Origin: Diacronema lutheri
Taxonomy: Eukaryota; Haptophyta; Pavlovophyceae; Pavlovales; Pavlovaceae
Reading direction: 5' to 3'
NCBI GenBank assembly: GCA_019448385.1
Contig: JAGTXO010000024.1
Coordinates: forward strand, 350,001-414,000
Length of the DNA stretch: 64,000 nucleotides
Shown: in pieces, positions 385 to 59,506 of the stretch
Layout: every line of letters begins with the position of its first letter
Position numbering within the stretch: position 1 is the stretch's first letter
Made by a program: the position numbers and the translations under genes
The notes under the pieces: model-generated
What the model was told of the DNA's origin: nothing
The model's database searches: none
Seen by the model: only the letters and a program-made list of their open reading frames with translations

Positions 385-1318
385 GGAGCGCGCGCCGCGA
401 TGACGATGGGTGACCGAGCACGTGGACTAATGCTCCGTATATACGGTTTGTCCGAATCCGATGGGTGTGCCACTTGGGCACACCCCCTTGCGCGTGTTTG
501 GGAAGGGGCGTGAGCCCCCTGATGCGCGCGCGAAGGGCGACGGTGTAGCCTCGAATTGCCTACCAGTGTAGGCTTGGGGACAATGCCGTGTACACGACGT
601 CCTGGCGAGCGCGCGCAGCCTGAGCGTATCGGTCACCACACGGGCGCCCAGCGGTCCTCGCCTCGCCGCCACCGTGGGCGACGCTGCGTCGCCACGCGGA
701 AGCAGTGCTGCGCGGCGGCGCGAACAGCGCCACCGCGTCTGCAGCGCGAACGAACGCCTGCGCACAGCCACGCGGGACACAAGCTCGGGTCGGCTGGCGC
801 GAGGATGCGCGAAGGGCCGGCCGGATGCGCGATGGCGCGCGCGCGCACCCGGTGCGCTCTCGCGGAACGGCCCCTCTCGCACAAGGCGCTGGACCAGGCC
901 GGCTTGGCACGCCCTGTGCGACAGTGGGCGGTCGCGCCGGCAAATGCGATCGGGCGCTGGTGGGTGGGCCCAAGGGCCGAGCGCACGGGCGCACACGCAA
1001 CACCGCGTGGCGCGCGCGCGGCGCAGCTCGCTGCAGCAGGCGCGCGTCGTCGCACCTGCCTGCGCTTACGCGCGCGCGTCCATCGTCGACGCCTGTTCAA
1101 CCTCATGCCATGCCCGCCCCCTCCCCCGGCCCCTCGCCTTGCCAGCCCCACATCCCCCCCAACCCCCCCCCCCAAGCCGCGCCAACGGGCGAACAGTCTC
1201 ACGGCACGAAGAGCGTTCTCCGCGCAATCGGCCGTCTCGCGACGCACAGGTCGCGGCACGGTCGTCGGTGCTGACGGTCGCCACGGCCGCTGCTCGCGCA
1301 GCGGCCGCAGCAGCCACG
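385..1318. other. Intergenic region with no supported gene
   Basis: Several overlapping open frames exist on both strands, but all are arginine/alanine-rich shadows with no motif. It lies downstream of the 3' end of the Fanzor-type gene. This is where a guide (omega) RNA of a Fanzor locus would be expected if one exists. I could not recognise one by eye. Confidence 0.4.
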
Positions 1319-1416
1319 TCACCCGCCGTCGTCGCCATCGCTGCCACTCTCGTCGTCGTCGTCGCTGCCGCCCTCGTCGCCATCGCCAGCGCCATCGTCG
1401 CCGCCGTCACCGTCGC

Positions 1417-1447
<31 letters not shown>

Positions 1448-3830
1448 GTCGTCGTCATCGTCGTCGCCGCCGCCGCCGCCGCCGTCGTCGGCACGCGCCT
1501 CCCACACGGCTCGCACCAGCTCCCAGCGATCGGGCGTCGAGGTGATGTCGTCGGCCCGCCCGTCGAGCTGCGCGATCATGTCGAGCACGTCGTGGTAGAT
1601 GCCGCGCGCGCCCGCCAGGTCGCGGTGCTCCACCATGCGCCCACCGTCGCAGCGCGGGCAGCGCAAGAGCGCGTGGACCTTGCGTGCTGAGCCGCGAGCG
1701 GCCGGCAGAAAGTCCTGCTCGACGACCGCGCAGCAGCGCTGCAGCTTGCCCGGCGCGACCTCGCGCACGCGCGAGCAGTGCATGCTCGTGTACGGCTCGG
1801 GCACGTAGACCACCGCCACGCCGCGCGCGCGCAGCGCGCGCGTCACGCCGACGACGAAGGCGGGCGGCGCGCCCTTTGGGTGCGCGCCCGGCCGCCCGCG
1901 GCCACGCATGCGGCCGGCGCGCTGGTCGCGCAGCCAGTCGCCGACGCAGACGAGCAGCTGCGACTTCTTCACGCCGTCGACGCAGTGCGCCCCGATGACC
2001 GCCTCTGCCGCGCGCGCCGCCGCACGGCCGCGCGCCGCGCCGTCGCTGCGCCAGCGCTCGCGCCGCCGCTCGCGCGGGAGGTAGACGGCCGGCCCCGCAC
2101 GGTCGCGCACCGCCTGCCCACCGTCGCGGCGGGCGAGGAAGTCGTCCTTGTCCACGGCGTTGGCGCTCGGCAGGTCCCCCAGCGCCGCCTCGAGCGCCTC
2201 GACGACGAATTTGCCCTGCGCGTCCGTGCGCGTCGCGCGCCGCGCGTTGAAGGTCGCATCCGCGCGCCGCGCAAAGCCGGCGCCGCGCGCGCGCTGCCGC
2301 TGCGTCATCTGCGTGCTGACCGCGCCGCGCCGCGGGAGGCGCGAGAAGGTCGTCCAGCCGCACGGCCCGGCGTCGATGGCCACGACGTTGCGCAGGCCCG
2401 TGCGCACGAGCAGATGCAGCTGCCGGGCCGACGCGTGCAGCAGCGGAGCGCGCGGCTCGCGGCAGCGGCGCGCGAGCCACTCGCCCTCGCGCGCGCCAGC
2501 GGCGGCCGTGCCCGCCTCGGCGCCGTCCGTCGCCGGCGCCGCGCTGTCCGACGGCTCGACGGGCGCCGGCACGCGCACGTGGCAAAACGTGTGCACGCCG
2601 ACGCCGTCGGTGTCGACCGACGTGACGGGCTCCCGGCCCGGCAGGTGTGCGGGCGGCAACGGCGTGCGCCCCACCCACGTCCGCCGCGCGTCGGCGGCGA
2701 GGCCGGCGGGCGGCCGCTCGCGCCCGGCGTAGTCGAAGGCGCGATTGGAGATGTCGAAGACGAGCGCAAAGATGCAATACCTGATCCGCACGTCGCTCGT
2801 CACCGGTCGGCCCTCCTTGTTGAACGGCACGGCCGGCGTGCCGTCGTGGTTGAGCAGCCCGCGCGCCCAAGCCCGCACGGCGGTGCGGTCCGTCTCGGAC
2901 GCGCTGGCCCAGATTGCACGCGCGTCGAGGCGCACGTAGCGCGGCACCTGCGCCTGGCGCCGCGGCAGGATGCCGTACGGTGGCGCGGTGCCGGTCAGCT
3001 CGGTGTAGACGCCCGCGAGCCGGCGCAGCAGTGCGTGGCCCTCTTTCCGGTGCTCCTTCCGCTTGAGGAAGTAGTTGGTGTAGTGGCGGGTGCCTGTCCA
3101 CTCCTCGGTCGATGCGCACGTGTAGTCCACGCCCTTGAGGACCATCGCGCCCAGGTGCGGCCTGAGCGCCATCGGCGCGTCGCCCGCCGCGCCACTCGCG
3201 TCGCCCGTGAGCAGCAGCGTCGAGAGCGCCTTGGCCAGCGCGTTGCGCTCTTCGCGCTTGCGAGGCGCGTTCGCGTCGCGCTCCACGGCGTAGCGCACAA
3301 TCGCCTTAAGCAGCGGCGACACGACGCGCCGCGGGTGCTCGATGCACGCCGTCGCCACCTCCGTCGCGGCAAAGTCCATCACGTCTCCCAGCTTGCGCTT
3401 GCTGCACGGCCGATCCGCATCCATCACACGGCGGCACGCCTCCTTGTACAGCGCCTTGGCGCGGGCGTGGCCCGATTCGCCGTCCGTACGGTGCCTCGTG
3501 CCACCGACGCCGATGCTCTGGAAGACGGCCTGCACGACCGTCTTGTTTGGCACGGTCGTCTCCGCTTGGCCCTCGCAGCGAGCCTGGACGTTGAGCGCGT
3601 CGTAGACGCGCACGACTGTGTGCTGCACCTCCACGACGAGCGCGTTCATCCAGTCGCGCGCCTCGTCGTGCACAGCGTGCGGCCCCGTGTTGCGCGTCGA
3701 GCCACGCCCGCCTCGTGCGCCGACGCCCGTCGTGCCGTCGCCCTTGGCGCGGCCTCGGCCGCCCGTCGTGCCGCCCCCGCCCGCATCGCGCGCGCCCGCG
3801 CCGCCCGACTCGCCGCCGCCCGACGCGCCG

Positions 3831-3861
<31 letters not shown>

Positions 3862-6800
3862 GCGCCGGCGACGCCGAGCGGCCGCGGCCGCGCGCGTCCG
3901 ACGGCGGCGCCGACGCGCCGCGGCCGCGGCCGCGGCGCGTCGGCGGCGGCGCCGAGGCGCCGCCGTGGACGCGCGCGCGCGCCGCCGAGCGGCCGCGCGG
4001 TGGCGCCGCCGAGCGGCCGCGCGGTGGCGCCGACAGCGCGTCGGGCATCGGCTCGTCTGGCAACTCTTCGCGCGGCGGCGCGTCGGGCATCGGCTCGTCC
4101 GGCGACGCGGCGGGCGGCGCGGCCGGCAGCTCGGGCGGCGGGCCGGCCGGCGCGCCCACGCGCGCCGCAAATCCCTCGCACGGATGGCCGCTGCCGGCCG
4201 GCGGGCGCGCCGCCTGCAGGCCGCCACCGTCGCCGATGCCGTGCTCGCCGATGCTGCGCGTCATCAGCCCGTGCAGGCAGTCGAGCACCGCCGCGCAGCG
4301 CGCCGCCTCAACGCCGCCCTCGCCGCCGGGCGCGCGCACGAGCAGCTCGACCACCGCGTCGCGCAGCGCCGGCGGCCCGCCGGCCTCGGCGGCCGGGCCC
4401 ACGCACGCCGAGCGCAGCTCCGCGACGAGCCCCTCCGCGAGGTCGCGCGCCTCGCGCCCCCCCTCGTTCGCAAAGGCGTAGCACACAAAGTTGGCCGCCG
4501 CGCCGTGGCGACGCCTTGGCTGGTCGGCGACGAGCAGCCCGGCGGGCGCGTCGGCGCCCTCGCGCCACAGCACGACGGCGAGCAGCGCGCACGCGCCGGC
4601 CAGCGCCTCGCGCCCCTGGCGCACGAGCTCCGGCCCGTCGCGCAGCGCGAGCGCCACGCGCAGCGTCCGGCGCTGCTGCGACTGCCGCGTGAGCCAGGTG
4701 CATGCCGCCGCAAAGGCGTCGACGCGGACCGTCCCGCCCGGCGCGCTCATCGACGCGCGTAGCGCGTCGGCCGCGTCGGCCGCGGCGGCTGCGACGGACG
4801 CGGCAACGGCCTCGGCGTCGGCGGCCACGTCGGCGACGTCCGCGTCGCCGGCCTCGGCGCGCGCGCGCGTCGTCGGCGCGACGCCGTCGACGGTCGCCCA
4901 CTCGACCAGGAGCGCGAGCTGCCGCCGCACCGCGTGCAGCGCGTCGTCGATGCCGCGCGCGGTGGCGAGCGCGGCGACGGCGGCGACGCCGCCCTCGGCG
5001 TCTGCGGCGGCCGCGACGCGCTCGAGGCAGAGCAGCATGGCGACGCGCGAGTTGGACGCGCGCGTCGGCTGCGGCGCGCGCCGCACGCACACCGCCACGC
5101 TGGGCGCGAGCAGCGCCGCGGCGCGCCGCAGCGCGCCGTGCGCGCGCGCGTGCGCCCACCGCGGCTGGCCCGTCGTCGGGTGCGTCGCGCGCGTCGGCAC
5201 GAAGCCGTCCGCGCGCGCCACGGCGCCGTCGGCGGTCACGTGCAGCACGAGCAGCGCCGCGCCGACCTGGCTCATGGGGAGGGGCACGAGCACGCGCGCC
5301 GGCTTGCCCGCCGCGTTCGCCGCGCCGAGCGCGCGCGCGAGCGCGTCGGTGCCCGCCGCGGGCGCCTCCGCGTCGGCCATCTCCATCGCACCCGCGGCCT
5401 CCGTCGCGCCGGCGGCCTCGAGCGCGAGCAGCTGTGCGGGCGTGAGCATGTGCAGCACGCGCGCATCGCCGCCCGGCAGGGTGTGCACCTGCGCGATGTG
5501 CGCCGCCTCCGCGGCGAGGACGGCGAGCGGCAGCTTGGGCCTGCGCCGCTGAGCGATGGCGCGCCGCCCCTCCTCGGCCAGGCGCGCGCCGCGGCAGCTC
5601 GCCGCCACGCGCCCCTCGAGCGACGCCTCGTACGCCGCTTTGAAGACCTTCTCGCTCGCGCACCGGGCGTGCGGCGGCGCGTCGAGGTGCGCGAGCGGCT
5701 CGGGGTGCGGCGGCGCGAGCGCGGCGCGGTGGCGCTGCGCGCGCGCGGCGCCGACGGCCCGCTCGGCGAGCAGCCGCTCCGCGTACTCGACGGTCGGGCG
5801 GCTCGCCGCTCGACGCGCCGCAGCGTCGCGCGCGCCCTCCGAGCCCGGCCTGCTCACGCCCTCGAGCCAGCGTCGATCGACCGCAAACGGGTCGCGCGGC
5901 AACGCCGCGACCCGCGCCGACCGGCGGACGCTGATCGGCCGCTTGCCCGGCGCCCCGCTCGTCGCGCCCTCGTCCTCGGCCGCTCCCCGCGCGCCATCGT
6001 CGTTGCCACCCGCGCCCGCGCCGCTGCCGCCTGCGCCGCTGCCGCTGCCACACGCGCCCGCGCCCGCGCCGCTGCCGTTGCCGCCGCCGCCCGCGCCCGC
6101 GCCGCCCGCGCCTGGGCCCGCGCGCGCCGTCGCATCGGCCGTCGCAGGCGGGTCGGTGCGCTCGTAGAGCAGCGCGCACAGACTCCAGCGTCGCAGCCCG
6201 TCGGCGTCCGACTCGACGCCCGCCGCCGCGCGCGCCATCTCGGCCCAGCGCGCGAGTCGCGCCCGCCCGCCCGCGCAGCGCACCCACATCCCACCGTGGC
6301 GCGCGAAGGCCACCACGTTCGCCGGCGCGCGGCCGCTGCGCACGAGCACGCCGCGCAGCTGCAGGCGCGCGCGCGCGGCGCGGCGCGTCGGCGCGTCGGC
6401 CGAACCTCCGGCCTCCGCGCCGCGCACCGGCGCCACAGCCCGGTCGGCCGCACCGCCGTCGTCGAGCGGCACGCTCTGCGCGAGCGTCGGCGGCGCGCCA
6501 CCACGCGGCGCGCCGCCGCCCGGCGCAACGCGGACGACGACCGCTCGCGGCACGGCCACCGCCGCGAGCGCGTCCTCGCCACTCAGCTCGCCCCGCAGCC
6601 ACGCGCCGAATTCGGCTGCGGTCGGCGCCTCCGCGCCGTCGACCGGCGCGTACGTCACGGTGGGGACGCCTCCGTCGCTCTCGTCCAGCAGCGCGTCGGC
6701 GAGCTGCGCGACGAGCGCGGCCGGGTCCATGTCCGCCGCGCCCGCGCCCGCGCCGCTCGCGCCGAGCGCCGCCGCGAGCTCGACCGCGGCGTCCCGCGCC

Positions 6801-9800
6801 GCGACCTCCCCCGCCACCTCCGCCGCGATCGTCTCCTTTGGCGCGTTGGCGTTGAGCGCGGGCGCGCGCAGGGCGCGCAGCGCGCGCCGCACGAGGCCGC
6901 CGATGGCGCCCGCGTCAACGTCAACGGCGCCGTCGCCGGCGTGCGCAAACGTGGTGCCAAACAGCGCGTGCAGCGCCGCGCCGAGCACGGCGGGGACGTT
7001 GGCGCTCGCGGCGAGGGCGAGGGGCCGTCGGCGCGCGCCCTCGTGCACGCCCTGCGGCACGCCACGCGCTCGCTCGAGCTTGCGCACGCGCGGGTTCGGC
7101 CGCAGCCGGGGCGGCGCCGCGTTGGCGGCCTCGAGCTTGAGCTCCGCTCGGCGCGCGCGCACGCGCCGCCAGTGCCGCGCGACGAGCGGGAGCGCAACGT
7201 CGACCCACCTCGCGTCCCGGCGCACCACGTGCGCCAACGGTCGGACGTTGACGAAGGGTGCGTCCTGCAGGTACACGGACGACGCGAGGCCGAGGCAGAG
7301 CATGCCGAGCTGCAGCTGCGGCACGTCCGTCGACGGCGGACCGGCGGCGTGCATCTTGACCTCGCGCGCGCCCGTCTTCGTCTTGACCTCGACGTAGTGC
7401 AGCGTGTCCTTGGGGTCGAGCCACAGCGCGTCGGCCGAATGGGCGAGCGGCGCGTGCGGCTGCGAGTGCTCCCACGGCACGAGCGGCAGATTCCGCACGA
7501 TGGTGCCGCCGTGCGCTTGGACAAACCTCGCGAGCGCCAGCGGCTCGTTGATGTGGCCCTGCGTCATCTCCGGCGTCGTGATGCCCACAGTCGCCACGCG
7601 GCGCGCCTGCACCTCGACGAGGTTGTCGAGCATCGCGCCGTCGCCCCCGAGCACGGTGCGCGCGGTGCTGCCCGTCGTGTAGTCGAGGCGCTCCTCGAGC
7701 CACGCGGGGGTGTTCTGCGCGGGTGCGCCCGCCCGCACGCGCGCGAGCACCGACCGCAGCGCCGCCGCATCGCCACCGCGCGTCTCGAGGTCAGTCGCCA
7801 GCTTCGCGAGCGCATCCACCTCCTCGAAGGCGTCGACGATACGCCCACCGGGCGGACGTGTCGGCGGCTCGAGTTGCGCAAACGCGGGGCCGGGGCGGGG
7901 CGCCCTGGCGGAGCCGGCGCCACCCGCGCCGCCGCCGCCGCGCCCGCCACTGCCGCGCCCGCCGCCGCGCCCGCCGCCGCGCCCGCCGCCGCCGCCGCCG
8001 CCGCCGCGCCCGCGCCCGCGCCCGCCGCCGCCGCCGCCGCCCGCCGCGCCGCCGCCGCCACCGCCGGCAGCGGCTGCTCGCACGCCGGGCTCGTCCGCGC
8101 CCGAGGCGCCGGCGTCGACCGCCCCGTGGGGCTGCGCCGCCGCCCGCGCCGGCGCGCGACGCGCGGGCGGCGTGCGCGCGCGTGCGAGCGCACCCTCGTC
8201 GCCCACGCCACCGCCACGCCCACCGCCGCGCCCGCCGCCACCGCGCGCGCCGCCCGACGAGCGGCCGCCCCCGCCTCCGCCGCGCCCGCCGGCGCCGCCG
8301 CCACGCGCGTCGCGCCGCGCCTCCTCCTCGTCCGCCGTCGCGCCCGAAACGGCCGCCGCGCCCGGCCCGGCGGTGGCCAGCCCGGCGGCGGCGGCGACGG
8401 GCGCGTCCGCGGCCGCCGCGGTGCCCGCCCGGCCACGCTCGCCCAGCGGCGCGCGCGGCGGCTCGGCTTCGACCGTCACGCCGGCGACCGCGCCTCGGCC
8501 ACGGGCGGCGGCAGGGGCCGGCGCGCCTCGCGCCGCCGCGCGCGGCGCGGCGGCGCGAGGCGCGGTGCTCGGCCCTGCGCCACCCGTCGTGACGGCGCGG
8601 AGCGCCGCCGCCGGCTCGCCCGCCGAATCGAGGCCGCTCGGCCCGGCGGGCGGCCCGACGCGCGCCCGCGCGGACGGGCGGTCGTCCGCCTCGTCCTCGT
8701 CGTCGGGCGGGCCGCCCGCTGCGTCGGGCGGCGCGAGGGAGCCGCGCTCGTCGCGCGCCCAGGCAACCGCCGCGTCGAGCAGCGCGCGCGACGCAGCGCC
8801 CGCCTTGTTGCCCGCGCGGCCGGCCATCGCCGCCGCGACGACGGCCTGCGCGTCGCGCGCCGCGCGCGCGAGCAGCGCCATGCTCCGCCGCATGTCGTCG
8901 AATGCGGCGACGACGTTGCCGCAGCCGCGCTTGCGCAGCGCGCTGCTGAGGTGCGGCGTGCGCACGGAGACGACGGCCGCGTGCGCATCAATCGCCGGCC
9001 AGACGGCCAGCGTCCCGACGCCGCCCGCCGCGTGCAGTTGCGCGACGGCGCTCGGGCGCTGCTCGCCCGCGCCGCCGGCGCGCGCCGCGCACTCGACGAG
9101 CCATCTGCCGGCGTCGCGCCCACCGGCGAACTCGTACGTCGCGGCGAGCGCGTAGCGCGCGCGCACGGCCGCGAGCACCGCCGCGTTGATGGCGCCCGCC
9201 GCGGCCTCGCTCCGCCGCGGCTCGGCCGCGCCCGCCGCGCCGCCGTCAGCGTCCGCGTCGGCGCCGGCGGCGTTGCCGGCGCAGGCGGCGCGGCGCGCGT
9301 GCCCGCCGGCGCACGGATCCGCCTGCTGCGTGACCGCACCGTCGCGCGCGCAGTGCAGCGCCTGCAGCCGCGGGCAGAACCAGAGCGGGTTGGCCGCCTC
9401 GAGGCAGAGCGCGACGACGTCGCGCCCCCACCCGGCGCGCGCGTCGGCGAGCAGGTGCGTCGCGAGCTTGGACGTCTGCGCGTCGGCGTGCGCGCCGCCG
9501 CCCTCGCCCTCGACGAAGAGGCCGCCCGCGCCCGCCGGACAGCGGGCGAGCACGACGAGCAGGGGCTCCGCCGCCGTCCCCGCCCGCGCCAGCTCGTTCG
9601 GCGGCACGAACGCGACGCCGCTCCCGCGCGCCCCGTCGCCGGCGCGCACGAGCGCCGCGCAGCACCGCGCGCCCGCGAGCCGCTCGACGGCCGCGCGCAC
9701 GTGCGCGAGCGCGGCGCGGGCGCCCAAATCCGAGGGCGGCGCAACCTCTGCGAGCTGCTGCTCCGTCAGCTGCAGCGTGCCCGGCCGCACCGAGAGCACG

Positions 9801-12800
9801 GCCAGGTAGTAGGCGCTGAGCAGCTCGGGCGGCAGCTCGTGCGCGCTCCGGTGGCGCAGCGCCTTGGCGCAGCCGTGCACGTCGCCGTGCAGCGCCGCGG
9901 CGCGCCCACCGCTGATCAGGCAGGGCGGCGCGTCGCCGAGCGCGCCGAGCGCGAATGCGGCGGCCGACGAGCCCTGCGGGCCGATCGCCGCCCGCGCGAT
10001 GTCGTGCGCGGCGAGCGCCAGCTCCTCGTCGCGCGCGTCGAGGCGCACGGCGGGCGCGCCGGCGGCCGCGCGCGCGGACAGCGCGCGCGCGGGCAGCGCG
10101 CGCGCGGCCGCATCGCGCGCCGCCGTGCACGCCGCCGCCGCGGCCGCCGCCCCCTCGAGCGCGCTCGCCGTGCGGTAGCGCGTGCGCGCCGCGACGAGCG
10201 CGGCGACCACGGCGGTCGGCCCGTCGAGCGCGCGGCCGATGACGACCGTCGCGGTCTGCAGCGCAAACTCGGCGCCGTCTGCGAACGCGGCGCGCAACGC
10301 GGCGGCCGCAAAGCCGTCCGCGATCGCGCCGTCCGAGCTCGCGCCGTCCGCGCTCGCGGACGGGTCGCGCGCGGCGAATCGCCAGACGTGCGCACGGTCG
10401 GCCGGACGGGCGACGTCGCGCTGCACGACGAAGAGCGCCACCTCCGACTCGGCGTCCGCCTCGCCGACCTCGAACACGCGCACCACGGCCTGCAGTCCCT
10501 CGCGCAGCGCGGCGCCGGCGGCGCGGACGGCGGCCGGGTCGATCGCGCCGCGTTTGCTCCGCGCCGCGCTGACGACGGCCGCGCCGTGCGCGCGCATCGT
10601 CGCGGCCGCCGCGGCCCACGCGGCGGGCGCCGACGACGCGCCGCTGCCCCCCGGCGCGGCTGCGAGGGCACGTGCCACCATCGCCGGCCAGAGCGCGTCG
10701 CCCACCGCCGCGCTCGGCGCGGCGCGCGGCGCGGGCGTGCGCGCGGCCGCGGCGAGCGCCTTGACGGTCGCCGCGTCGGGCCGCCGATACGCGACCAGCA
10801 GGTCGACGAACGCCTGCCGCACGTCGGCGAGCGCGTCCGCCGCAGCGCTCGCCTCGTCGCTCGGCGCCGCGGCGGCGCCACCCGCCGCGATCTGCGCCAG
10901 CCGGCGCGCGAGCGCGTGCCGGCCGCCCTCGACGCGCTCCACGTGCCCTGGCGGCGGCTGCGGTGCGTCGGCCGCGGTGGGCGCGGCTGGGCTCGCGGCG
11001 CGGCGCACGCTCGCGAGCACGCCGCCGGCGTCGGTAGCGTCCTCGCCCGTCGTGCGCACGGCGTCGACGCGCGTCCAGCCGCCGAGCGTCAGCCTGCGCC
11101 CGGCCGCCGCGCGGTCGCGCCCCGACGCGGCGCCGAGCTCGCCCGACACGACGAGCGCGCTCGCGCCCGCGGCGCCGTGCAGGTGCGCCGCGATCAGCAC
11201 GTAGGAGCTCCGCCCTGCGTTGCGCGCCTCGCGCTGCGCGCGCAGCATGTGCTCGTCGATCGCGCCGTCGCGGTCGTCGCCCGCCGCCTGCAGCCGCTCG
11301 CACGCGCGCGCGCCGAGCACGACGACGTGCGCGCGCTCGGGCGCGCCGCGGCGCGCGCGCGCGCGCTTGGCGGCGGGGGCGCGCGCCTCGTCGGCGGCGG
11401 CGCGCGCGAGCGCGAGGGCGACGTCGAACGCCGCGGCGTCGAGCGCGCCCGCCGTCGACGCGAGCGCGCGGGCGGCCTCGGGCACCTTGCGCGCGCATCG
11501 GAACGCCTCGCGCAGGTGCGCGCTCGGGGCGCCGCCGCCGCCGCCGCCCGAGTGCGCCGCGCAGCACGCCGCCTCGAGCGCGACGAGACCCTCGCCGCCC
11601 GACACGTTCGTTGCGAGCTCGCTCGACGCCTGGCTCGCGCGCTGGACGGCGGCGTCGAGGAGCGCTCGGCGGTCATCGGCGGCCGGCGCCGGCGCCGCCG
11701 CGGCGGCGGCGGGCGCGCCCGCCGCCGAGGCGCGCGCGCGGCGCGTCCGTGCCGCGCCGACGAGCACGGCATCGCCGCGCGCGAAGCGGCGCGGCGCCGC
11801 GCCCACGGGCCGCTCGTCCGCCGCGCGGTCGCGCCCCCACGCCCACGGCGTCGCGTGGCCAACGGGCTCGGCGCGGCCGCCGCGCGCGCCGCCGTGCCGG
11901 CGCCGCGCGGCCGCCGCCGCCCTTGCGCACACGGCGGCGAGCGGGCGAGGGCCGCGCGCGCCCGCCACGCCGCCGTCTCCGCCGGCGTGCAGCGTCCACT
12001 CGACGTCCCCGCGCCCGCGCGCGACGGCGAGCAGGACGTCGATCTCGAAGGCGCCCGCGAGCGCCGCGCACGCGAGCTGCGCGGGCAGCGGCCGGCCGCA
12101 CGCGCCGCCCGCGCGCAGCGCGTTGATCTCCTCAACCGTCCAGCCGTCGTGCGCGTCCGGGTTGGCGAGCAGCCACTCGACCAGCGCCACGCGCATCGCG
12201 CCCGGCGGGCCGACACGCGCCGCCGCCGCAGCGGGCAGCGCCGCGAGGACGGCGGCGAGCAGGCAATCGTTGCCCACGGGCGCGGCTGCGCCCGCGGCGC
12301 CAGCGCCGTGCGCGGGCGGCGGGCGCGCCGCGAGCGCGCGCGTGCGCACCGCCGCGCGGAGGGTCGCGGCGAGCACGGCGAGCTCGCGACGCGCGCCCTC
12401 CGCCTCGTCGGCGGCCGCGCCGCTCGGCGGCGCGTGCAGCCGCGACGCCAGGACGGCGAGCGCGCCGGGCAGCCACGGCACGAGGCCGGCGATAGGCTCG
12501 GCCGCGACGGCGGCGCACGCCGCCGAGGCGTCGGCACGGCGTGCGACACCGCCGGCGGGCCGCGTCTCGCGTGGCGCCACCGCCAGCGCGGGCTCGGCTG
12601 CGGCGTCCGCGTCCGCGTACGACGCAGCGCGCCGCACGGCGAGCTCGGCGGCGGCGGGCGGGGCGGCGGCGGGCGGGGTGTCGGCGGGTGGGGTGTCGGC
12701 GGGCGGGGCGGTGGCGGGCGATGTGGCGGTGGGCGAGGTAACGGCAAGCCAGGTCGCGATCGACGAGGTGGCGATGCGCGAATTGACGATAGGCGAGGTC

Positions 12801-13057
12801 TTCACGGGCGGAGTGACGGGGAGCGAGGTGTTCACGGGCGGAGCGGGGACGGGCGGGGTGTCGACGAGCGAGTTGACGACGGGCGAGTTGTGCACGGCGG
12901 GGACGGGCGGGGTGTCGACGAGCGAGTTGACGACGGGCGAGTTGTACACGGCAGGGACGAGCGGGGCGTCGACGAGCGAGTTGACGACGGGCGAGGTGTG
13001 CATGAGGGGGACGGGCGGGGCGTCGACGAGCGAGTTGACGACGGGCGAGGTGTGCAT
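1319..13057 (-). CDS. Giant Fanzor-type RuvC nuclease fused to a YqaJ-like PD-(D/E)XK nuclease
   Basis: One stop-free frame of about 3,912 codons. From the N terminus: 18-residue SPVVNSLVD-type repeats, an OTU-protease-like GNDCLLAAVLAALP motif near residue 260, and long alanine-rich stretches. Then come Gly/Arg-rich linkers and a YqaJ/lambda-exonuclease-type domain (about 1780-1970). This domain shows WLEER, GHINEP, the D...E-V-K core in SADALW/YVEVKTK, and the Q-x-Q of PQLQLGML. A second RGG-rich linker leads to a Fanzor domain (about 3130-3860). It has RuvC-I VVAIDAGPCG near 3558, CVGDW, the alternative glutamate in PEPYTSMHC near 3757, a CPRC zinc knuckle and RuvC-III EHRDLAGARGI. It ends in a poly-Asp tail. 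Fanzors are transposon-encoded RNA-guided nucleases. The first in-frame ATG is at 13057, inside the repeat array. Start and exon structure are uncertain. Confidence 0.72.
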
Positions 13058-14262
13058 GAGGGGGACGGGCGGGGTGTCGACGAGCGAGTTGACGACGGGC
13101 GAGTTGTACACGGCAGGGACGAGCGGGGTGTCGACGAGCGAGCTGGCGACGGGCGAGTTGAGTTGTACACGGCAGGGACGGGCGGGGTGTCGACGAGCGA
13201 GTTGACGACGGGCGAGTTGTACACGGCAGGGACGAGCGGGGTGTCGACGAGCGAGCTGGCGACGGGCGAGGTGTGCACGACGGGGACGGGCGGGGTGTCG
13301 ACGAGCGAGTTGACGACGGGCGAGGTGTGCACGAGGAGAACGAGCGGGGTGTCGACGAGCGAGCTGGCGACGGGCGAGGTGTGCACGACGGGGACGGGCG
13401 GGGTGTCGACGAGCGAGCTGACGATGGGCGAGGTGTGCACGAGGGGAACGAGCGGGGTGTCGACGAGCGAGTTGACGACGGGCGAGGTGTGCACGAGGGG
13501 AACGAGCGGGATGTCGACGAGCGAGTTGACGACGGGCGAGTTGTACACGGCAGGGACGAGCGGGGTGTCGACGAGCGAGTTGACGACGGGCGAGGTGTGC
13601 ACGAGGAGAACGAGCGGGGTGTCGACGAGCGAGTTGACGACGGGCGAGTTGTACACGGCAGGGACGGGCGGGGTGTCGACGAGCGAGTTGACGACGGGCG
13701 AGTTGTGCACGGCAGGGACGAGCGGGGCGTCGACGAGCGAGTTGACGACGGGCGAGGTGTGCACGAGGAGAACGAGCGGGGTGTCGACGAGCGAGTTGAC
13801 GACGGGCGAGGTGTGCATGAGGGGGACGGGCGGGGTGTCGACGAGCGAGTTGACGACGGGCGAGTTGTACACGGCAGGGACGAGCGGGGTGTCGACGAGC
13901 GAGCTGGCGACGGGCGAGTTGTACACGGCATGGACGGGCGGGGTGTCGACGAGCGAGTTGACGACGGGCGAGTTGTACACGGCAGGGACGAGCGGGGTGT
14001 CGACGAGCGAGTTGACGACGGGCGAGGTGTGCATGAGGGGGACGGGCGGGGTGTCGACGAGCGAGTTGACGACGGGCGAGTTGTACACGGCAGGGACGAG
14101 CGGGGTGTCGACGAGCGAGCTGGCGACGGGCGAGGTGTGCACGGCAGGGACGAGCGGGGCGTCGACGAGCGAGTTGACGACGGGCGAGGTGTGCACGAGG
14201 AGAACGAGCGGGGTGTCGACGAGCGAGCTGGCGACGGGCGAGGTGTGCACGACGGGGACGGC
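12840..14262. repeat. 54-bp minisatellite, about 26 copies
   Basis: Tandem units of 54 bp, recognisable by GGGGTGTCGACGAGCGAG followed by TTGACGACGGGCGA. On the minus strand each encodes 18 residues (type SPVVNSLVDTPPVPLMHT). The unit is a multiple of three, so the array stays open in several frames. Units vary mainly in the last third (GTGTGCAC, TTGTACAC, GTGTGCATGAGG). The left edge fades into degenerate units from about 12815. A 5-bp insertion near 13160 shifts the frame between the two parts of the array. Confidence 0.9.
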
Positions 14263-14297
14263 CGCCTGCGCGAACGAGCGCCGCCTATTCCTTCGGC

Positions 14298-14644
14298 CGC
14301 GTCGGCCCCGCGGGAGGTGGCGCGGTGCGTGTCGCGCTATGCGTGTCGCCGCTGCGCGTGGGGGTTCCTGACATACCCGGGAACCCCGCTCTCATAACCG
14401 CGACACGTGCAGGCGGCGCGGCCGCAGCGCCGCGAGCGGCGTCATCATCGGCGTCGGTCGCGGGCACCGGCTCTCGGTCGAGGTCATGAAGATCATCCTG
14501 TGGCGGCTATTTTCTCGGCAGGAGCGCGGTGAGGATCGCGGATGACCTCCACACATCCACCGACACGCTCACGGAGTCGATCGTCCGCGCCACCATCGAG
14601 CGGTACGAGGCCACCGGCATCGTCGATTCCCAGCCGAACAAGCC
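14298..14644 (+). repeat. Left inverted-repeat arm (347 bp)
   Basis: Matches the reverse complement of 16525-16871 without a mismatch in my base-by-base comparison. It contains a small internal hairpin, GGGGTTC...GAACCCC, near 14350-14386. From about 14503 inward it encodes the helix-turn-helix segment (YFLGRSAVRIADDL onward) on the plus strand. Confidence 0.9.
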
Positions 14645-16269
14645 ACACGCTCGGTGAGCCGGCAGCGGACGGCGGCGTCGCGGACGGTGTCGCCGTGCCG
14701 GCCCCGGGTTCCCAAGATGGCCAGGACCCCGCCGCCGCAGCTGCGACATCCGCCGCGCCCGGCCCGCCGGCCGGCGCAGGCGCGCTCGCGGCCCTCCGCT
14801 TGGACGCGGACGCCGGCGCGCGCGCTGGCGTTGGTCGCGTCAAGGTCGCGCGCGCCGGTCCGTTGGACAAGGCGATAGCCGACAAGATGACGCGAGCGAA
14901 GCGCAAGGCCGACCAAGACGAGGCCAATCGCGCGCGCGAGACCTCGGCGCCGGCTGGCGCGCGACCCCGCGTGCCGAGGGTTACCATGTACTCGCCTACA
15001 ACAATTGGCGCACTGCCGCAGCGCTCGTCTCGCAAGCCCAGCGCTGGCGCAACGAAGCCGCCCGAGAAAGCGGCTCCAGTGCGCGCCCTCGCCGGCGGCG
15101 GGGCCGGCGCGAAGGCCGGTAGCTCGAGCGCGCTGCCGGCGGCCGAGCCGGACGAGCACGAGCCGGACGAGCACGAGCCTGCGCGTGGGCTTGCGGCGGT
15201 GCCCGCGCAGGATTCGGTCAAGTCGTGGCGGACGACTCCGAGGAGGAGGGGAAGCCTTTGGAGACGCTGCGCGTGTACCTCGTGTCCTTTGACGCGTACG
15301 TTGATGCCCTCTACGTTGATGCCCTCAAGCCGGGCGAGCCATTGTGCGTCAAGCTGGGCGCCAACTCGGGGGACAACGATGCGATCACTCGCGTGCAAGC
15401 TTTAAAAAGGGCCAAGCTCCTCTTCAGTATAGCGCGGAGGCCGCGGAGCTCGCCAAGTCGGAGGCCGCGCGCACGCAGAGGAGAACAAGGTGCACTTTGC
15501 GCCTGCGCTCGGGGAGAAGGCGCAAGCGCAGGCCCGGTCGGCTGAGACGCGCGCCAACAAGGACGAGGCGGCCGCAAAGGCGGCGGAGATCAAAGCCGCG
15601 CAGCTTGAGGAGCGCACGGCGGAGACGAGCGATGTGTCGGCGCGCCGGCCCGGCGCGCGAGACGCGTCGCGCCGCTAATCGCGCTCGACCGGCGAAGACG
15701 GTGAGGATGACGAAGCAAGCGCTTCCGCGCCGCTACGCGCTCTCGTTGGTCTACAAGCAGCCGACGGCTTTTACGCGCTGGTCGAGAGCCGCGACGTGCT
15801 CACCACGCTCCTACGCTCGACGCACGACTCGACTCACGGCAACCTGCCGCAGCCGCCTCACTCCCTTCGGCTCTACCGGATCGGCATCAGCGAGAGGTCG
15901 GCGCGCCCGCAGTGTTCGTCCGCCTGACGCTGATCACCGACGATGCCGACGTGGCGCGCAGGTTTTACGCGCCGAGCGGCGCGCAGCAGGACTTGGACAT
16001 CTGCATTCTTTACCTTGTCGTCGAGGTGACGCCCCCGCCCAAGCACCCTGGCAAGGTCGGTGGCGGCGGCCTCGTGGCGTCGGGCGGCTGGGCCGGCGCG
16101 TTCGATGCCTACTCCGCGCCCGTGCCGGCGCCGCAGTCCATTGCTCCCACTATGCCGGCCGCTCAGAGCGTGGCGCTCGCGCAGCAGGTCGCGCAGGCGC
16201 TCGAGTTGTGCAAAGTTGGCTGGGATGCGACCGCGCAGGCGTGAATCAAGGCTGCTGAGCACATCAACA
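14645..16269 (+). other. Interior of the inverted-repeat element: decayed coding sequence
   Basis: Plus-strand stretches with non-random composition follow one another in different frames. Examples are an acidic segment beginning MADDSEEEGKPLETLRVYL near 15225, an alanine/lysine/glutamate-rich helix near 15490-15640, and FVRLTLITDDADVARRFYAP near 15912-15980. Stops and frame changes interrupt them. I do not recognise the family. A short duplication (two copies of TACGTTGATGCCCTC) is visible at 15298-15328. Confidence 0.4.
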
Positions 16270-16667
16270 GCAGCGTCGAGCGCGCGCAGCTGTTCCTCAG
16301 CATGCCCGAGGTGTTCTTCTTCGTCGCGGGCCGCTTGGACGCGCTGCATCTTCTTGAGCGAGAGGCCGGCTGCGCAGAGGTTGTAGTGAATGTACTCGCG
16401 CGTGAACGCCTTGAGCGTGACGGCCTGCAGCTCGGCCGCAATCTCGCTTAAGTGAAGTCACGGTTGCTCCGCCATGATCGCGAGCATCAGCTCCTGGTCG
16501 AGCTCGCTCATGAGCTTCGCGCACGGCTTGTTCGGCTGGGAATCGACGATGCCGGTGGCCTCGTACCGCTCGATGGTGGCGCGGACGATCGACTCCGTGA
16601 GCGTGTCGGTGGATGTGTGGAGGTCATCCGCGATCCTCACCGCGCTCCTGCCGAGAAAATAGCCGCC
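16270..16667 (-). pseudogene. Tc1/mariner/IS630-like transposase remnant, N-terminal DNA-binding region
   Basis: The minus-strand frame reads RIADDLHTSTDTL, then IERYEATGIVDSQPNKP, then ELMLAIMAEQP, and meets TGA at 16458-16460. It continues in the same frame with LHLSEIAAELQ, REYIHYNL and GLSLKKMQRVQAARDEEE. This order (resolvase-like HTH, RYxxTG, then LxEIxxxLxxxGLSxKKM) is that of the paired HTH of IS630/Tc1/mariner transposases. The DDE catalytic domain is absent. The in-frame TGA sits where many relatives have tryptophan. A further TGA lies just upstream of the HTH segment, so no intact start is seen. The first half lies within the inverted-repeat arm and the second half in unique interior DNA. 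Confidence 0.68.
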
Positions 16668-16871
16668 ACAGGATGATCTTCATGACCTCGACCGAGAGCC
16701 GGTGCCCGCGACCGACGCCGATGATGACGCCGCTCGCGGCGCTGCGGCCGCGCCGCCTGCACGTGTCGCGGTTATGAGAGCGGGGTTCCCGGGTATGTCA
16801 GGAACCCCCACGCGCAGCGGCGACACGCATAGCGCGACACGCACCGCGCCACCTCCCGCGGGGCCGACGCG
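16525..16871 (-). repeat. Right inverted-repeat arm (347 bp)
   Basis: Reverse complement of the left arm. Both arms stop matching abruptly, at 14644/16525 on the inner side and 14298/16871 on the outer side. Confidence 0.9.
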
Positions 16872-17393
16872 ACGCGCGCGCGCACCTCTCGCGGCCATTT
16901 TCGCTTTTTCGCGCGCGGGTCTCTCCTATTCCTTCGTCCGCGAACTCAGACCCAACGGGCAGTATTCCTGACCACAGGCAGTGCTCGCGCGTCCCACGTC
17001 GCACACATACTCATACGCGCACGCGCGCGGCGCGCATCAGACTCTGGGAGCAGCGGCGTCGTCAGATACCTCGCAAGTGAGCGCAGTGGTGCGCGTGCGG
17101 AGCCCGCCGCGCGCGCCCTGAACACCCTCACGCCCGCCCACGCCCGCGCGACGCACGTTGCACGCGCGCGCGGGCCCTGGCCGCGCCGACGACCGCGCGC
17201 GCTCGCGGCGACCCCACCATCGCAGCGTGCGTGAAATCACACGGGCCACCGGCAGGCACTGCCGAGCGGTGATACTGCCGCCGATGAGGACGTCGCCGAC
17301 GATCAAGTGCCCTTTTGGCATCGCCGCTGCGGCAGATGCAGCCGCAAATGACTCCGTCGCGACGCGCGGCGACGGGCGCTGGCCTCGTGCGCT

Positions 17394-18214
17394 CAGCCCT
17401 CGGACCGTACGTCGCCGGGCTGCTCGAGCGCTTCGAGGCAACGACAGGACAACCGGCGCCGACGCCGGAGGTCGAGGCGCGATCGATCGTGTCGTCAGAC
17501 GACGACGACGACGAGCTGCTCTCGACGGCGGACAAGCTCATGTACCAATCCATCACGGGAGGGCTGATGTTCGCGATGGTGACGTGCCGGCCCGATCTTG
17601 CGCACGCGGTGAACATGCTGGCGCGGCGGATGTCGAGGCCGAGGGCCGTCGACCTGCGCGCCGCACGTCGCGTGCTGCAGTACCTGCGCGGCACCGAGCA
17701 GCTCGGCTTGCTCTTCAAGTACGCCGAGGACGCCGAGTGCACGACGCTGCGCGCGTTTGCCGACGCGGACTGGGCCAACGACCCCGTGCAGCGCAAGTCC
17801 ACGACCGGCTACATCGTGTTTTTCAACGGTGCGCCGATCTCGTGGCACAGCGGCTTGCAGAGCACCATCTCGCTCAGCAGCTGCGAGGCGGAGTATGTCG
17901 CATTGAGCGAATGCTGCCGCGAAGTCGACTACCTCCGGAGCATCATCGACTTCCTCCCCCAGCCGTCGGCCTCGCCGACGGAGATCTTTGAAGACAACCA
18001 GGGGACGATCGATCTCGTCAACAACCCGGTGCACCACCGGCGCACCAAGCACGTCGAGGTCAAGTACCACTACGTGCGCGACGCGCAGGAGAAGGGTCGG
18101 ATCGTTGTGAGCAAGGTGCACACCTCGCTCAACCACGCCGACATCATGACGAAGGCCACAGACAACGCCACGTTCGCTCGCCACGTTACGAGCTTCATGG
18201 TTGCCCGCCGCTGA
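17394..18214 (+). mobile_element. Ty1/copia retrotransposon fragment: end of reverse transcriptase plus RNase H
   Basis: The reading frame, open from about 17315, matches copia polyproteins from YVAGLLERFEATTG, the tail of reverse transcriptase, onward. Next come LMYQSITGGLMFAMVTCRPDL, ARRVLQYLRGT and the RNase H core. In order, the core shows DADWAND, KSTTGYIVF, SSCEAEYVAL, EDNQGTIDL, HRRTKHVEVKYH and ADIMTKA. It ends at a TGA (18212-18214) as copia pol does. Gag, protease, integrase and most of the reverse transcriptase are missing upstream, so this is a 5'-truncated copy. No frameshift is seen in the retained part, which suggests limited age. Confidence 0.92.
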
Positions 18215-18256
18215 GTGCGTTCCGCGCGCGCGCGCGCCGCACGCACGGTGCGCGTC

Positions 18257-18320
18257 GAGGGGGGGTGTTGGCATTGTGTCTGTGCTGCATGTGTGAGTGT
18301 GACTGCATGTCCGCGTGACA
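18257..18320 (+). mobile_element. Copia polypurine tract and start of 3' LTR
   Basis: GAGGGGGGG at 18257-18265 lies 42 bp after the pol stop codon and is followed directly by TGTTGGCATTGTG. A polypurine tract touching a TGTTG start is the usual 3' LTR boundary of copia elements. The LTR end cannot be placed, because the 5' LTR is not in the window. ACAACA near 18888-18893 is one possible end. Confidence 0.6.
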
Positions 18321-19676
18321 CACATGGCGGATGTCCGTCGACGGATCCCATCGGTGGCCGGCGAAACGTTTCGCTCGCGCCTTTTGGGCGATTCGGTGTC
18401 GTGAACGAAGACGGAAAGAAACGAAGACCGCGCTTGGCCAGGCCGAGCACTAGGTGGCGCTCGACTCGCCTGGTCCGCCCATCGGGGGCAAGGATTCGGA
18501 GTGAGCCACCGCATCGACAAGTTGATCGTCTTTGGCTTCGCGCCATTTCCCAGCCGGCCCCTACGCGCCAACGGACCGGTCCCGCCCGAGCGTCGTCTCG
18601 TCTCGAGAGACGGTCGGTGTGGTACGCCGCGCGCATCGTCAGCGCCGCGGCGTCGAGCTCGGCGGGCGACGGCGCGTACGTGACGCCGCCGCTCAGCGCC
18701 CCGTCCGCGCCGCCCCTCGTCGCGCTTGCCGCCTCCGCAGTGCGCGCAGGCGGCTTCCTGACGGCACGCGAGGCCACACTGCGCGCTGCAGGTGCATTCG
18801 CGCGCTGCATCCTCCGTCCGAAGCTCGGCCCGAGGCGCTCTGCTCTGAACGAACGGACGGCACGCCCGAGATCTCGTGGCACGCTCGCACAACATGCACC
18901 CCCAGAACTTCTCCGAGCTGCTGCCCGACGAGATCGTCGGCGACGACCCGCTCGTCGACCGGCACTACCGCGTGCGCATCCTTCGGCGCGTCGCGCCCGC
19001 CGCCGCGATGCGGACGAGGTCAACTTTTGGCTCGACGGCGGGCCCGCCGACTCGGTCGTCGGCGCGTGCATGTGCGGCCGAATCTACGCGCTCAAGTGCG
19101 TGGGCCGGCTCCCGGATACTCGCGCTGCTGCGCAAGAATGTCGCGCTCGCCACGTGCCGCGCGCACCTCATGGGCCACGTGCTTTAGCGCATCGTCGGCG
19201 ACGGCGGCGTCGCGCGGCTGCTGCAGCTGGTTGCAGCTCGTTCGCGTGGATCACGACACGCTCAACGCCGAGCGCCAGGCCTTGGCAGCACTGCATGACA
19301 CCGGCCAAATCATGCGACGGCATGTGCGCGCGCGCCGATGCGCTCTCCAAGGACCTCGCACGGGCGCACGTGCACGCTTACAAGCTCGGTGGCTATCTGG
19401 TGTGGTGCAGCGACCGCCTCCGTGAGAGTGACTCTTTCAACGGAGCGCTCAAGAGCCTGGTCACGCGGTGCAGCGTGAGATCTGCTGGCTCCACGCCGAG
19501 ATATCGTCGCTCGTTGCGAGTTCGCCCGAGGTTTATGCGAACGACAGCGAGGCCGCCGACTACAAGGACCACGGCGTGTGCGTCGAGATCGATGTCTTCA
19601 ACCGCGACGAGGTCGAGGGCGCGCCCGTGCCCGCGACCGCGCCCACGAAGGCAGAGCCGGGCATCGAGTCCGAGAG

Positions 19677-19715
<39 letters not shown>

Positions 19716-20466
19716 GGCAAGGCCGCGCACCGAGCCCGAGTGCGCCAACGTGCCGCCGAACTCGCCCAAGCTCTCGTCGGTCGACAGCCAGGCCATCGAG
19801 CACAAGACCTCCTATACGAACTCACGTGCTCGCCACCTGCAACGCCTCGAGTTCACGCACGCGTTCGAATCTGTGCAGGCCGAGGTCGCTTAGTCAAAGC
19901 GCGCCAAGGTTCCGGCCACCGGCGCATCGAGGCGCTGGCTGCGCAACACGGCCGTGCGCAACACCCGCAGCTCGGCCAACGGCAAGTAGCGCGCCGGCGC
20001 AGCACACGGTAAGCCGCGGCGAGCTCAGTCGCGAAGACTGTCCGTGGCCGCGCCCTCCACGGGGTGCACGCGCACTCGGCGCGGTCCGGTCAGTCAGAGG
20101 GCTTCAGCTTGCGCGATGCCAGTAGCGATCCCCCCCGGAATCCGCCATTCTATTCTACTGGGCGTCAATCACCCAAGCCCTTCCGGTCGCCCGCATTCCG
20201 GGGTCGGACCCTCCGTCGGCCCGGCTCGGGCCCTCCGTCCGCCGCGCCCGCTCGACCCCGAATTCTACTCAAAATCGGCCGGTCAGGAGGGGGGTCTCGG
20301 TCCTAAGCTCGTCCTAAGCCTCGCCCCGACCCCTCGAGCGCTCATTGGCTGGCGTTTAACCCTTGATTGTACAACCCGGGTCGTACTCTCAGCCCCCTAC
20401 TGGCCGGACCAGCCCGGACCGCGCCATATATAGGGGAGGCACGCCGCCTCCCCCACCGGACTAGCG
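18321..20466. other. Region without a supported gene; LTR remainder and decayed sequence
   Basis: The first part is probably the rest of the LTR. Between about 18890 and 19900 the plus strand carries short protein-like stretches in changing frames, such as NFSELLPDEIVGDDP near 18900 and EICWLHAEISSLVASSPEV near 19470. A (GCGCCC)n run lies at 19680-19713. These look like a decayed gene of unknown family. A TATATA motif at 20425-20431 stands in a local patch of lower G+C, but I cannot link it to a start site. Confidence 0.45.
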
Positions 20467-21150
20467 TCAGCGCAGGAGGACGACGACGCACACCATGCAC
20501 GCGGCCAAGACGGCGAGCGCGACGCAGATGGCCACGACGATGCCGCTGCCCACGTCTTCGCTCGGCGGCGGTGCGCCCGTGCCGGCCGGCGCGGCGGCGT
20601 GCGCAGCGGCGGCCGCGCCCGCCGGCGAGCCGGCCGCGCGCGCGGGCGAGGCGGCGGGCTGCGCGAGCACGCACGGAGGATCCACCTTGCCGCACTCGCG
20701 CGGCGCGTCCGCCTCCTTGCGCCGCGACGGCGCGCAACACATCTTGCGGCCGCCTGGCGCGGACGCGCAGTTCGGCTCGACGCCCGCGTCGTCGCCGCAC
20801 GCCGCGGGGAAGCAGTGCTTGTTGTCGGCGTGCACGACGCCGGTCGAGCACGTCGGGTCGCCCGCCTTTTTGATCAAGCACGGGCCCGGGTCGTTCGCCG
20901 CGCACTGCCGGCCTGCGCGCACGATCGGGCTCGGGCAGCACGACGACTGTGCGTCGGGCACGGGCGCCTTCGAGCACCTTGCACCGCCGCACGTGCCGCA
21001 GGCCGCCGGGCAGCAGACGACGGAGCCGGAGCGCGGAAACTTCTTCTCGATGCCCGCGCAGCGCTCCGACGCCCCGCAGCCGAGCACGCTGGCCGCCACG
21101 AGGAGAGCCGCGGCCCTCATCGCGCGCGAGGGCGGAAGGGCCGCCGCCAT
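20467..21150 (-). CDS. Cysteine-rich single-pass membrane protein
   Basis: 227 residues with no intron. The start at 21150 is followed by a signal peptide (AMRAAALLVAASVLGCGASE). The ectodomain has about 20 cysteines in a repeating pattern (CCPAACGTCGG..C, later SSCCPSPI, HCFPAACGDD, KMCCAP). Next come an Ala/Pro-rich stalk and one hydrophobic helix close to the C terminus (GIVVAICVALAVLAACMVCV), ending in LLR. This predicts a type I surface or secretory-pathway protein. The CC..CGTCGG motif is familiar from many algal extracellular proteins, but I know no function. It is divergent from the glycosyltransferase gene, with 69 bp between start codons. Confidence 0.72.
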   Translation of the reverse strand: MAAALPPSRAMRAAALLVAASVLGCGASERCAGIEKKFPRSGSVVCCPAACGTCGGARCSKAPVPDAQSSCCPSPIVRAGRQCAANDPGPCLIKKAGDPTCSTGVVHADNKHCFPAACGDDAGVEPNCASAPGGRKMCCAPSRRKEADAPRECGKVDPPCVLAQPAASPARAAGSPAGAAAAAHAAAPAGTGAPPPSEDVGSGIVVAICVALAVLAACMVCVVVLLR

Positions 21151-21219
21151 AAAAAATTGCACCTTTGGCCGCAACGCCGGTCGCGCGTGCGCTTGACCGG
21201 CTGGTTGGGTTGGTGCGCG
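21151..21219. promoter_or_regulatory. Divergent promoter region (69 bp)
   Basis: This is the whole distance between the start codons of the cysteine-rich protein and the glycosyltransferase. Any promoter must be shared or lie within neighbouring transcribed DNA. An A/T patch (AAAAAATTGC) lies directly beside the minus-strand ATG. Confidence 0.45.
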
Positions 21220-58481: not shown

Positions 58482-58559
58482 GCGCCCGCAGGCGCCATCG
58501 TGTGCATCAGCGGGTAGGGCGCCCTCGACGGCGGGCGGGAGCCACAGCGGGCGAGCGCG
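58482..58559. promoter_or_regulatory. Divergent promoter region (78 bp)
   Basis: Whole space between the start codons of the GH95 gene and UBC12. No TATA box is seen. Confidence 0.45.
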
Positions 58560-59403: not shown

Positions 59404-59506
59404 AGGGGGCGCTCTCCGAGGCAATCCCCACAGAGCCTCATCCGGGCACTGTTTCAGTCTGGCAACATCGTGATGAGTGATCAGAAGGGGCACAATCGTG
59501 GCGCCC

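Follow-up and report, generated by a model that had tools for sequence, protein, structure and literature searches.

A large mobile-element family in the haptophyte Diacronema lutheri with a predicted giant protein joining a YqaJ/RecE-like exonuclease and a Fanzor-type nuclease

A giant open reading frame and its two nuclease parts

We analyzed a stretch of 64,000 nucleotides from the haptophyte Diacronema lutheri (GenBank assembly GCA_019448385.1, contig JAGTXO010000024.1), hereafter the window, which corresponds to C74:350001-414000 in the genome that we searched (43,492,796 bases in 103 contigs). Toward one end of the window, on the minus strand, lies what the evidence well supports to be a 5'-damaged copy of a large mobile-element family; equally well supported are its relation to a second, abundant family of more than 200 copies and the fusion, in the giant product of both, of a YqaJ/RecE-like part with a C-terminal Fanzor part. 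The window copy spans 437..14264, from its 3' terminus to the point (about 14264) at which homology to a paralogue on contig C82 ends.

Within this copy, an open reading frame (ORF) of 3,930 codons runs on the minus strand over 1319..13111 from a GTG, taken as a provisional start codon; from stop to stop the frame extends over 14284-1319 (4,321 codons). An earlier note on this DNA had reported a single stop-free frame of about 3,900 codons, and that claim is confirmed by comparison with 300 dinucleotide-preserving shuffles of 1319-12843, in which the longest frame in any of the six reading frames averaged 899 codons and reached a maximum of 1,814. Measured in five stretches, the G+C content (GC) of the frame is 0.73-0.87 at codon position 1, 0.49-0.71 at position 2 and 0.93-0.95 at position 3, which is a coding pattern. 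Long frames easily arise here because the local DNA is 74-84% GC, and the opposite strand also holds a frame of 3,202 codons. As to the extent of the frame, its openness stood and its N terminus did not: the frame reads through a 54-bp minisatellite upstream (12843..14260, 26.2 copies), at the far end of which homology to the C82 paralogue stops, so the start is not fixed. Methionine codons occur in frame at residues 19, 37 and 306 of the window protein. Low-complexity linkers lie between the conserved blocks of the protein, and the RG-rich stretches that had been described as linkers are indeed present at about residues 1601-2000 and 2801-3200. Frames around other copies reach 4,518 codons (C71) and 5,200 codons (C94), and that of the abundant family is open for 3,734 codons across the stretch read; from these frames and the first methionine codons, we estimate a predicted product of 3,600-5,000 residues.

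Residues of approximately 1781-1984 (7160..7771, minus strand) are predicted to form a YqaJ domain of the RecE/lambda-exonuclease type. The PHROG 434 RecE-like exonuclease family matches this part with an expectation value (E) of 5.9e-10 in the window and 4.3e-18 in the second family, and a three-row profile built from both families aligns with the PDB 3SYY exonuclease (E 9.6e-6) over positions 20-225 of 226. The Pfam model PF09588 falls at residues 1804-1933 with 15.6 bits for the whole window protein and 18.2 bits for the piece, against a cut-off of 22; pieces of both families stay below this cut-off and the C71 copy lies above it (28.2 bits), being also the sole match in a genome search for PF09588 at E 0.001 (150 of 203 candidates scored). 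Invariant in the YqaJ alignment, which has three rows, two of them closely related, are TGS, G-x3-E, S-x-D, VEVKT and QLQLGM, which we take to be the YqaJ active-site motifs; the putative active-site residues are kept in both families. The best phage matches of the YqaJ part by tblastn (25 records) are 28-29% identical at 80% query cover. The part shares its domain homology and key residues with the YqaJ/RecE-like recombination exonucleases of phages (PHROG 434; 3SYY), but here the domain belongs to the giant protein of a eukaryotic element, and no annealase partner was recognized in the parts scanned. The folds of both nuclease parts were judged from profile matches.

The second nuclease part occupies residues 3141-3870 (1502..3691, minus strand) and is 42.6% identical to the Fanzor part of the second family. 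PF07282 scores 21.7 bits on the whole window protein and 25.3 bits on its C-terminal piece, both under the cut-off of 26.3, and 28.5 bits, over the cut-off, on the second family; it matches all six rows of our alignment of the Fanzor part (A3). L006 and L009 were excluded from the protein alignment because they contain internal stops. The NCBIfam TnpB model gave 14.5 bits on the second family, far under its cut-off of 100, and no match in the window protein. The putative key residues in the window are RuvC Asp-3580, the alternative Glu-3772 (ExxxxxxC), Cys-3779, Cys-3793/3794, Cys-3818, Cys-3821, Asp-3831 and a TDG at 3501. The Fanzor motif D-X(125,275)-[TS][TS]XX-C4-X(5,50)-RD, as it appears in passages of Bao and Jurka 2013 (PMC3627910), is found in both families, with gaps of 194 and 8 in the window and 184 and 8 in the second family, the first zinc-finger cysteine pair being spread (13 residues between its members) rather than CxxC. 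Passages of PMC10711439 give as a Fanzor fingerprint an alternative glutamate that precedes the zinc finger by six residues and as a mark of Fanzor1 a TDG motif in the WED domain. Both have counterparts here, the former as EPYTSMHC (3772 in the window, 4035 in the C5 copy of the abundant family) and the latter at 3501 and 3794, respectively, invariant in the six rows of A3 and in a location that is putatively WED. The glutamate of TnpB, unlike that of the window protein, typically precedes the zinc finger by about 50 residues, according to the same passages of PMC10711439. Judged by these motifs, the C-terminal nuclease appears to be a divergent Fanzor-type enzyme closest to Fanzor1 but lacking DPG, an assignment that is provisional pending a tree; we say Fanzor-type and leave full membership unsettled because DPG is missing in the window and in the abundant family.

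Set beside Fanzor1 as portrayed in parts of PMC3627910, Saito 2023 (PMC10432273) and PMC10711439, the nuclease has the same RuvC aspartate, ExxxxxxC, zinc-finger cysteines, RD and TDG, and it likewise lies near the 3' end of its element, ahead of a conserved terminus. Unlike Fanzor1, it forms the C-terminal portion of a giant protein that also contains an exonuclease (and in one family a chromodomain as well), neither the window copy nor the abundant family has DPG as its RuvC-I motif, and the first zinc-finger pair is spread; the element, unlike those of Fanzor1 in these sources, has no known transposase and shows no long terminal inverted repeat (TIR). TnpB of the IS200/IS605 and IS607 elements is a further relative, of the RNA-guided RuvC family with a guide RNA from the element end (PMC10711439, in part).

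Two related families, their copies and their ends

Comparison of the window protein with the spliced C5 protein gives five collinear blocks, at window residues 1090-1267, 1325-1394, 1797-1949, 2608-2743 and 3141-3870. Conserved block A (residues 1090-1394; 8930..9844, minus strand) and conserved block C (residues 2608-2743; 4883..5290, minus strand) are without a Pfam match to E 10. The two also show no likeness to one another, and the idea of their being repeats of one fold found no support. Ulp1-like and OTU-like protease domains, suspected by eye in the N-terminal parts, were dropped, Pfam again giving no match to E 10. The abundant family carries a chromodomain (E 1.8e-12), of which the window protein shows no sign up to E 1. 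In the abundant-family Fanzor, all 20 copies have at the same place, where the N-terminal part gives way to the RuvC part, a GT-AG stretch of 128 nt, probably an intron to judge from its sequence, which is missing from the window copy. The earlier note had held that transcripts showing separate genes or many introns would refute the fusion; one probable intron in the second family was found, which alone does not amount to two genes. Its proposal that both nuclease signatures lie within one polypeptide frame is supported by the profile matches and motifs, and at the level of sequence we regard the giant fusion as real.

Further copies exist, the window frame being a member of a large family, mobile or at the least highly repeated, with matches across the genome. 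A genome search with the Fanzor part gave at least 59 matches (57 of 647 candidates scored). The C82 paralogue (L003) is 99.4% identical to the window copy over 4.8 kb and 94-100% identical further up. A pattern for the terminus shared by the two families, with two mismatches allowed, occurs at 242 places in the genome and one for the YqaJ part of the abundant family at 217, and reversed controls gave 0. Among the 99 listed YqaJ markers on C1-C40, 76 have a terminus 6,986-7,068 bases downstream and 23 have none, about ten of these at contig ends; conversely, 13 of 89 termini are without a marker. If all were complete to the 3' end, 217 copies would total about 1.5 Mb, or 3.5% of the genome. 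All 20 abundant-family copies that were fetched are 98.4-99.8% identical to L027 and have a sharp 3' end, although in three (L026, L030 and L039) the final TATAC is incomplete by one to three bases. This identity, together with the more than 200 marker places, indicates that the abundant family has recently spread. A marker placed 13.2 kb inward of the 3' end (C5 copy, 129811) is found at only 32 places, 31 of them exact, as against the 217 of the YqaJ marker, a difference that points to longer and shorter versions of the element or to alternative 5' parts.

The 3' end of the window element, at 437, is the point at which it diverges from the C82 paralogue; on the 5' side, homology to C82 ends at about 14264, where the copy adjoins a TIR element (14298-16965). 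At their 3' ends the two families have in common a 26-nt terminus, ATCGGATTYGG....ACC.T.TATAC, which stands behind a potential hairpin. In the window this is ATCGGATTCGGACAAACCGTATATAC (437..462, minus strand), itself holding a possible 3-bp hairpin at 444-454, and just inside it lies a possible 9-bp hairpin, GGGTGTGCC-CAAGT-GGCACACCC (463..485, minus strand). The terminus is identical between the families at 19 of 26 bases, a level equaled or exceeded by 8 of 295,480 other 26-mer pairs (best 21) and by none of 20,000 shuffles. Just inside the terminus both families can fold a hairpin of 7-9 bp with differing stem sequences, and in the 3-bp terminal hairpin a C-G pair found in the window family is replaced by U-A in the second. 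The larger hairpin is in the best fold of all six ends and the small one in that of four. In the RNAs of Fanzor and TnpB, the guide is directly preceded by a structured end (parts of PMC10711439 and PMC10432273), and by analogy the structured terminus would fit a guide-RNA scaffold, which is suggestive only.

Flanking sequence past the 3' end is available for 19 of the 20 abundant-family copies and has no common junction sequence. Contigs C1, C8, C12, C43 and C71 (L012, L017 and L039) start or stop within a base or so of the 3' terminus. An assembly that broke off at the edge of a repeat would explain this most simply, though a telomeric or tandem position is also possible. Telomeric placement was considered and set aside: an outward orientation was seen in 10 of 11 left-end markers, a result that the 7.1-kb span used for them favors. 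A viral origin found no backing either: scanning IMG/VR with the alignments of the two nuclease parts produced 38 (Fanzor) and 107 (YqaJ) pattern matches, none of them a relative, which with such short patterns is weak evidence.

How the element might move

We infer the use of a guide RNA, cutting, resection and transposition from the domains and anatomy described above, and the reading that we favor, at about an even chance of being right, is a mobile element that makes an RNA-guided cut and resects the break, whereupon recombination copies the element. Transcription of the 3' end of the element would yield a guide RNA with the structured terminus as its scaffold and the DNA just outside the element as its guide. 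The Fanzor part would then cut sites that match the guide, for example an empty site vacated by excision or one on the sister chromosome, and the YqaJ part of the same chain would resect the ends, so that recombination repair could copy the element back or across. The chromodomain of the abundant family may tether the protein to chromatin. A bolder version, in which the element has no transposase at all, guided cutting and resection are both the work of one giant protein, and recombination-driven copying has produced the more than 200 copies as a natural cut-and-resect gene drive, seems to us unlikely.

Several results weigh against the favored reading. Sequence searches of PDB gave 0 matches for the window Fanzor part and, for profile A3, three unrelated matches and no Fanzor; Cas12f1 (9i8y) appeared at a non-significant E of 0.25-0.3 and ranked below an unrelated protease, its alignment pairing DYNAARNI with DYNAAKNI. 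DPG at RuvC-I is near exclusive to Fanzors according to passages of PMC10711439, and the corresponding residues are DAG in the window, L005 and L007 and DPN in the abundant family, DPG being found among the rows that cover RuvC-I only in L004, a member of the window family. As to the ends, the small hairpin is missing from the best L011 fold and disrupted in L023, and the z scores of terminal fold energy relative to shuffles are -1.71 for the window, -1.69 for L003, -0.90 for L027, -1.27 for L010, -0.47 for L011 and -0.82 for L023; as modeled, the terminal hairpins appear to be of ordinary stability. Rfam at gathering scores found nothing in window positions 1-21000. The 3' flanks of 19 copies have no common motif, and there is therefore no sign of guided insertion at one type of site. 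The signal of selection is weak: in young copies of the abundant family, synonymous counts equal the neutral expectation for the mutation types seen, and plain dN/dS (the ratio of non-synonymous to synonymous rates) is 0.22-1.34, or 0.84-1.34 between families in four blocks, values that are uninformative at such a composition because two wrong-frame controls score alike (0.78 and 1.24).

Two counts from these comparisons speak for the reading, namely the synonymous excess relative to L003 and the lack of nonsense changes among copies of the abundant family. Between the window and L003, the Fanzor part has 10 synonymous differences (4.0 ± 1.7 expected) and 7 non-synonymous ones, one of which is a stop in L003. 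A synonymous excess in the Fanzor part is also present for L004 (83 against 59.6 ± 6.4) and L006 (48 against 32.3 ± 4.6), and there is none for L005 (22 against 18.2 ± 3.5) or for the upstream part of L004 (90 against 83.3 ± 7.5). The window-family relatives compared have 1 to 4 nonsense changes apiece. L001 and 19 copies together show 257 non-synonymous differences from C5 with 0 nonsense changes, differences that are not independent because many are common to several copies.

The main competitor is that a separate, unrecognized transposase, Helitron-, Crypton- or DDE-like and encoded in the 5' part or acting in trans, moves the element, the fusion only raising its retention as TnpB does in insertion sequence (IS) elements; we consider this quite possible, though short of an even chance. 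Fanzors usually ride elements with other transposases (parts of PMC3627910 and PMC10711439), and the 5' portion of the present family would leave room for one: the scanned parts of the giant protein yielded no transposase, DDE/HTH/THAP types included, and no reverse transcriptase, the 5' end being outside the scans and DDE and Crypton domains not having been searched genome-wide. The excess of YqaJ over 5' markers (217 and 32) is also somewhat like Mucor MCi-2, in which the 3' 6 kb are constant and the 5' parts vary, as described in part of PMC3627910. On the other side, Helitron_like_N occurs at one place in the genome (C63:35738-36019), with a fragmentary relative of the giant element about 37 kb away and no listed copy beside it, and a Helitron was accordingly rejected, with the proviso that a Rep domain too diverged for the model could escape. 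Nor do long TIRs or long terminal repeats (LTRs) seem to fit, since among the 89 of 242 termini examined (C1-C40) just two pairs lie within 30 kb, one on opposite strands at 25.1 kb and one on the same strand at 26.6 kb, so that no such pairing at element length is seen; in the opposite-strand pair the 3' ends face each other, and short or degenerate TIRs could escape this comparison. The ISL2EU (PHIS) transposons, as presented in part of PMC4482050, are likewise eukaryotic mobile elements that encode a YqaJ exonuclease domain; there YqaJ has an ORF of its own, next to a DDE/HTH/THAP transposase, and the element has TIRs and averages about 4.8 kb, whereas here YqaJ is fused to Fanzor and the parts scanned yielded no DDE domain.

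The two remaining explanations concern the frame itself and its present state. In DNA of about 80% G+C with few stops, separate genes or exons might share a frame by chance, and the antisense frame of 3,202 codons, the mean shuffle length of 899 codons and the low-complexity linkers that part the conserved blocks all lean that way. We nevertheless regard such a chance fusion as very unlikely, given that no shuffle exceeded 1,814 codons, that two diverged families keep the block order and the frame, and that 17 of 20 sequences have no net frame change relative to C5, the changed ones being L029, L030 and L037. Least probable of all, in our judgment highly unlikely, is that the repeat is a relic or domesticated, the window copy dead, the family no longer spreading and the protein without present function. 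The window copy does lose C82 homology on its 5' side and adjoin another element, the C82 copy does have an internal stop, and L004, L006, L007 and L009 are broken, but the second family, with its many marker places and 20 nearly identical copies, shows recent spread.

Returning to the favored reading of guided cutting followed by resection, the arrangement looks like a new variant of a Fanzor-bearing element. We know of no TnpB that is fused to an exonuclease. A pairing of Fanzor with YqaJ was not found in openly accessible papers, a set that mostly leaves out subscription papers and so does not show absence from print. TnpB and YqaJ both occur in a bacterial genome-trimming paper, the haptophyte virus CpV-BQ1 has two YqaJ-like genes (PMC12085832, in part), and the Fanzor structure paper PMC11423790 does not mention exonuclease, haptophytes, Pavlova, fusion or transposase. 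The role that Fanzors play for eukaryotic elements is open, and the fusion in two diverged families points to possible break-and-resect recombination; the alga can be cultured, which allows testing, and the fusion may offer a natural model for a guided nuclease coupled to end resection, of relevance to homology-directed editing.

Neighboring features of the window

The element at 14298-16965, next to the giant copy, is 2.67 kb long with inverted repeats of ~350-440 bp and is found at 98-100% identity in at least 38 further places; its left arm seems ~94 bp short, and three of its ORFs were tested, without a Pfam match. Beyond it, 16997-20426 on the plus strand resembles the 3' part of a Ty1/copia-like retrotransposon with a probable LTR of ~1.9 kb, also present on C82 at 4.3 kb from the giant part. 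An ORF at 17315-18214 (plus strand), for which Pfam gave nothing, is presumably the RNase H of this Ty1/copia-like element, to go by its motifs. Position 20433, once a candidate for the 5' end of the giant element, was rejected on account of this resemblance, although the C82 paralogue has the stretch as well.

Further along, a Nucleotid_trans glycosyltransferase (20599-23223, plus strand) and a GH95 glycosidase (54639-58778, minus strand) are likely ordinary host genes. A 192-bp tandem repeat of 4.5 copies lies at 38738-39595, and a related stretch stands in the 3' flank of copy L033. At 59477-62128 (plus strand), one ORF matches both EutB (E 1.9e-115) and EutC (E 7e-18), a fused ethanolamine ammonia-lyase.

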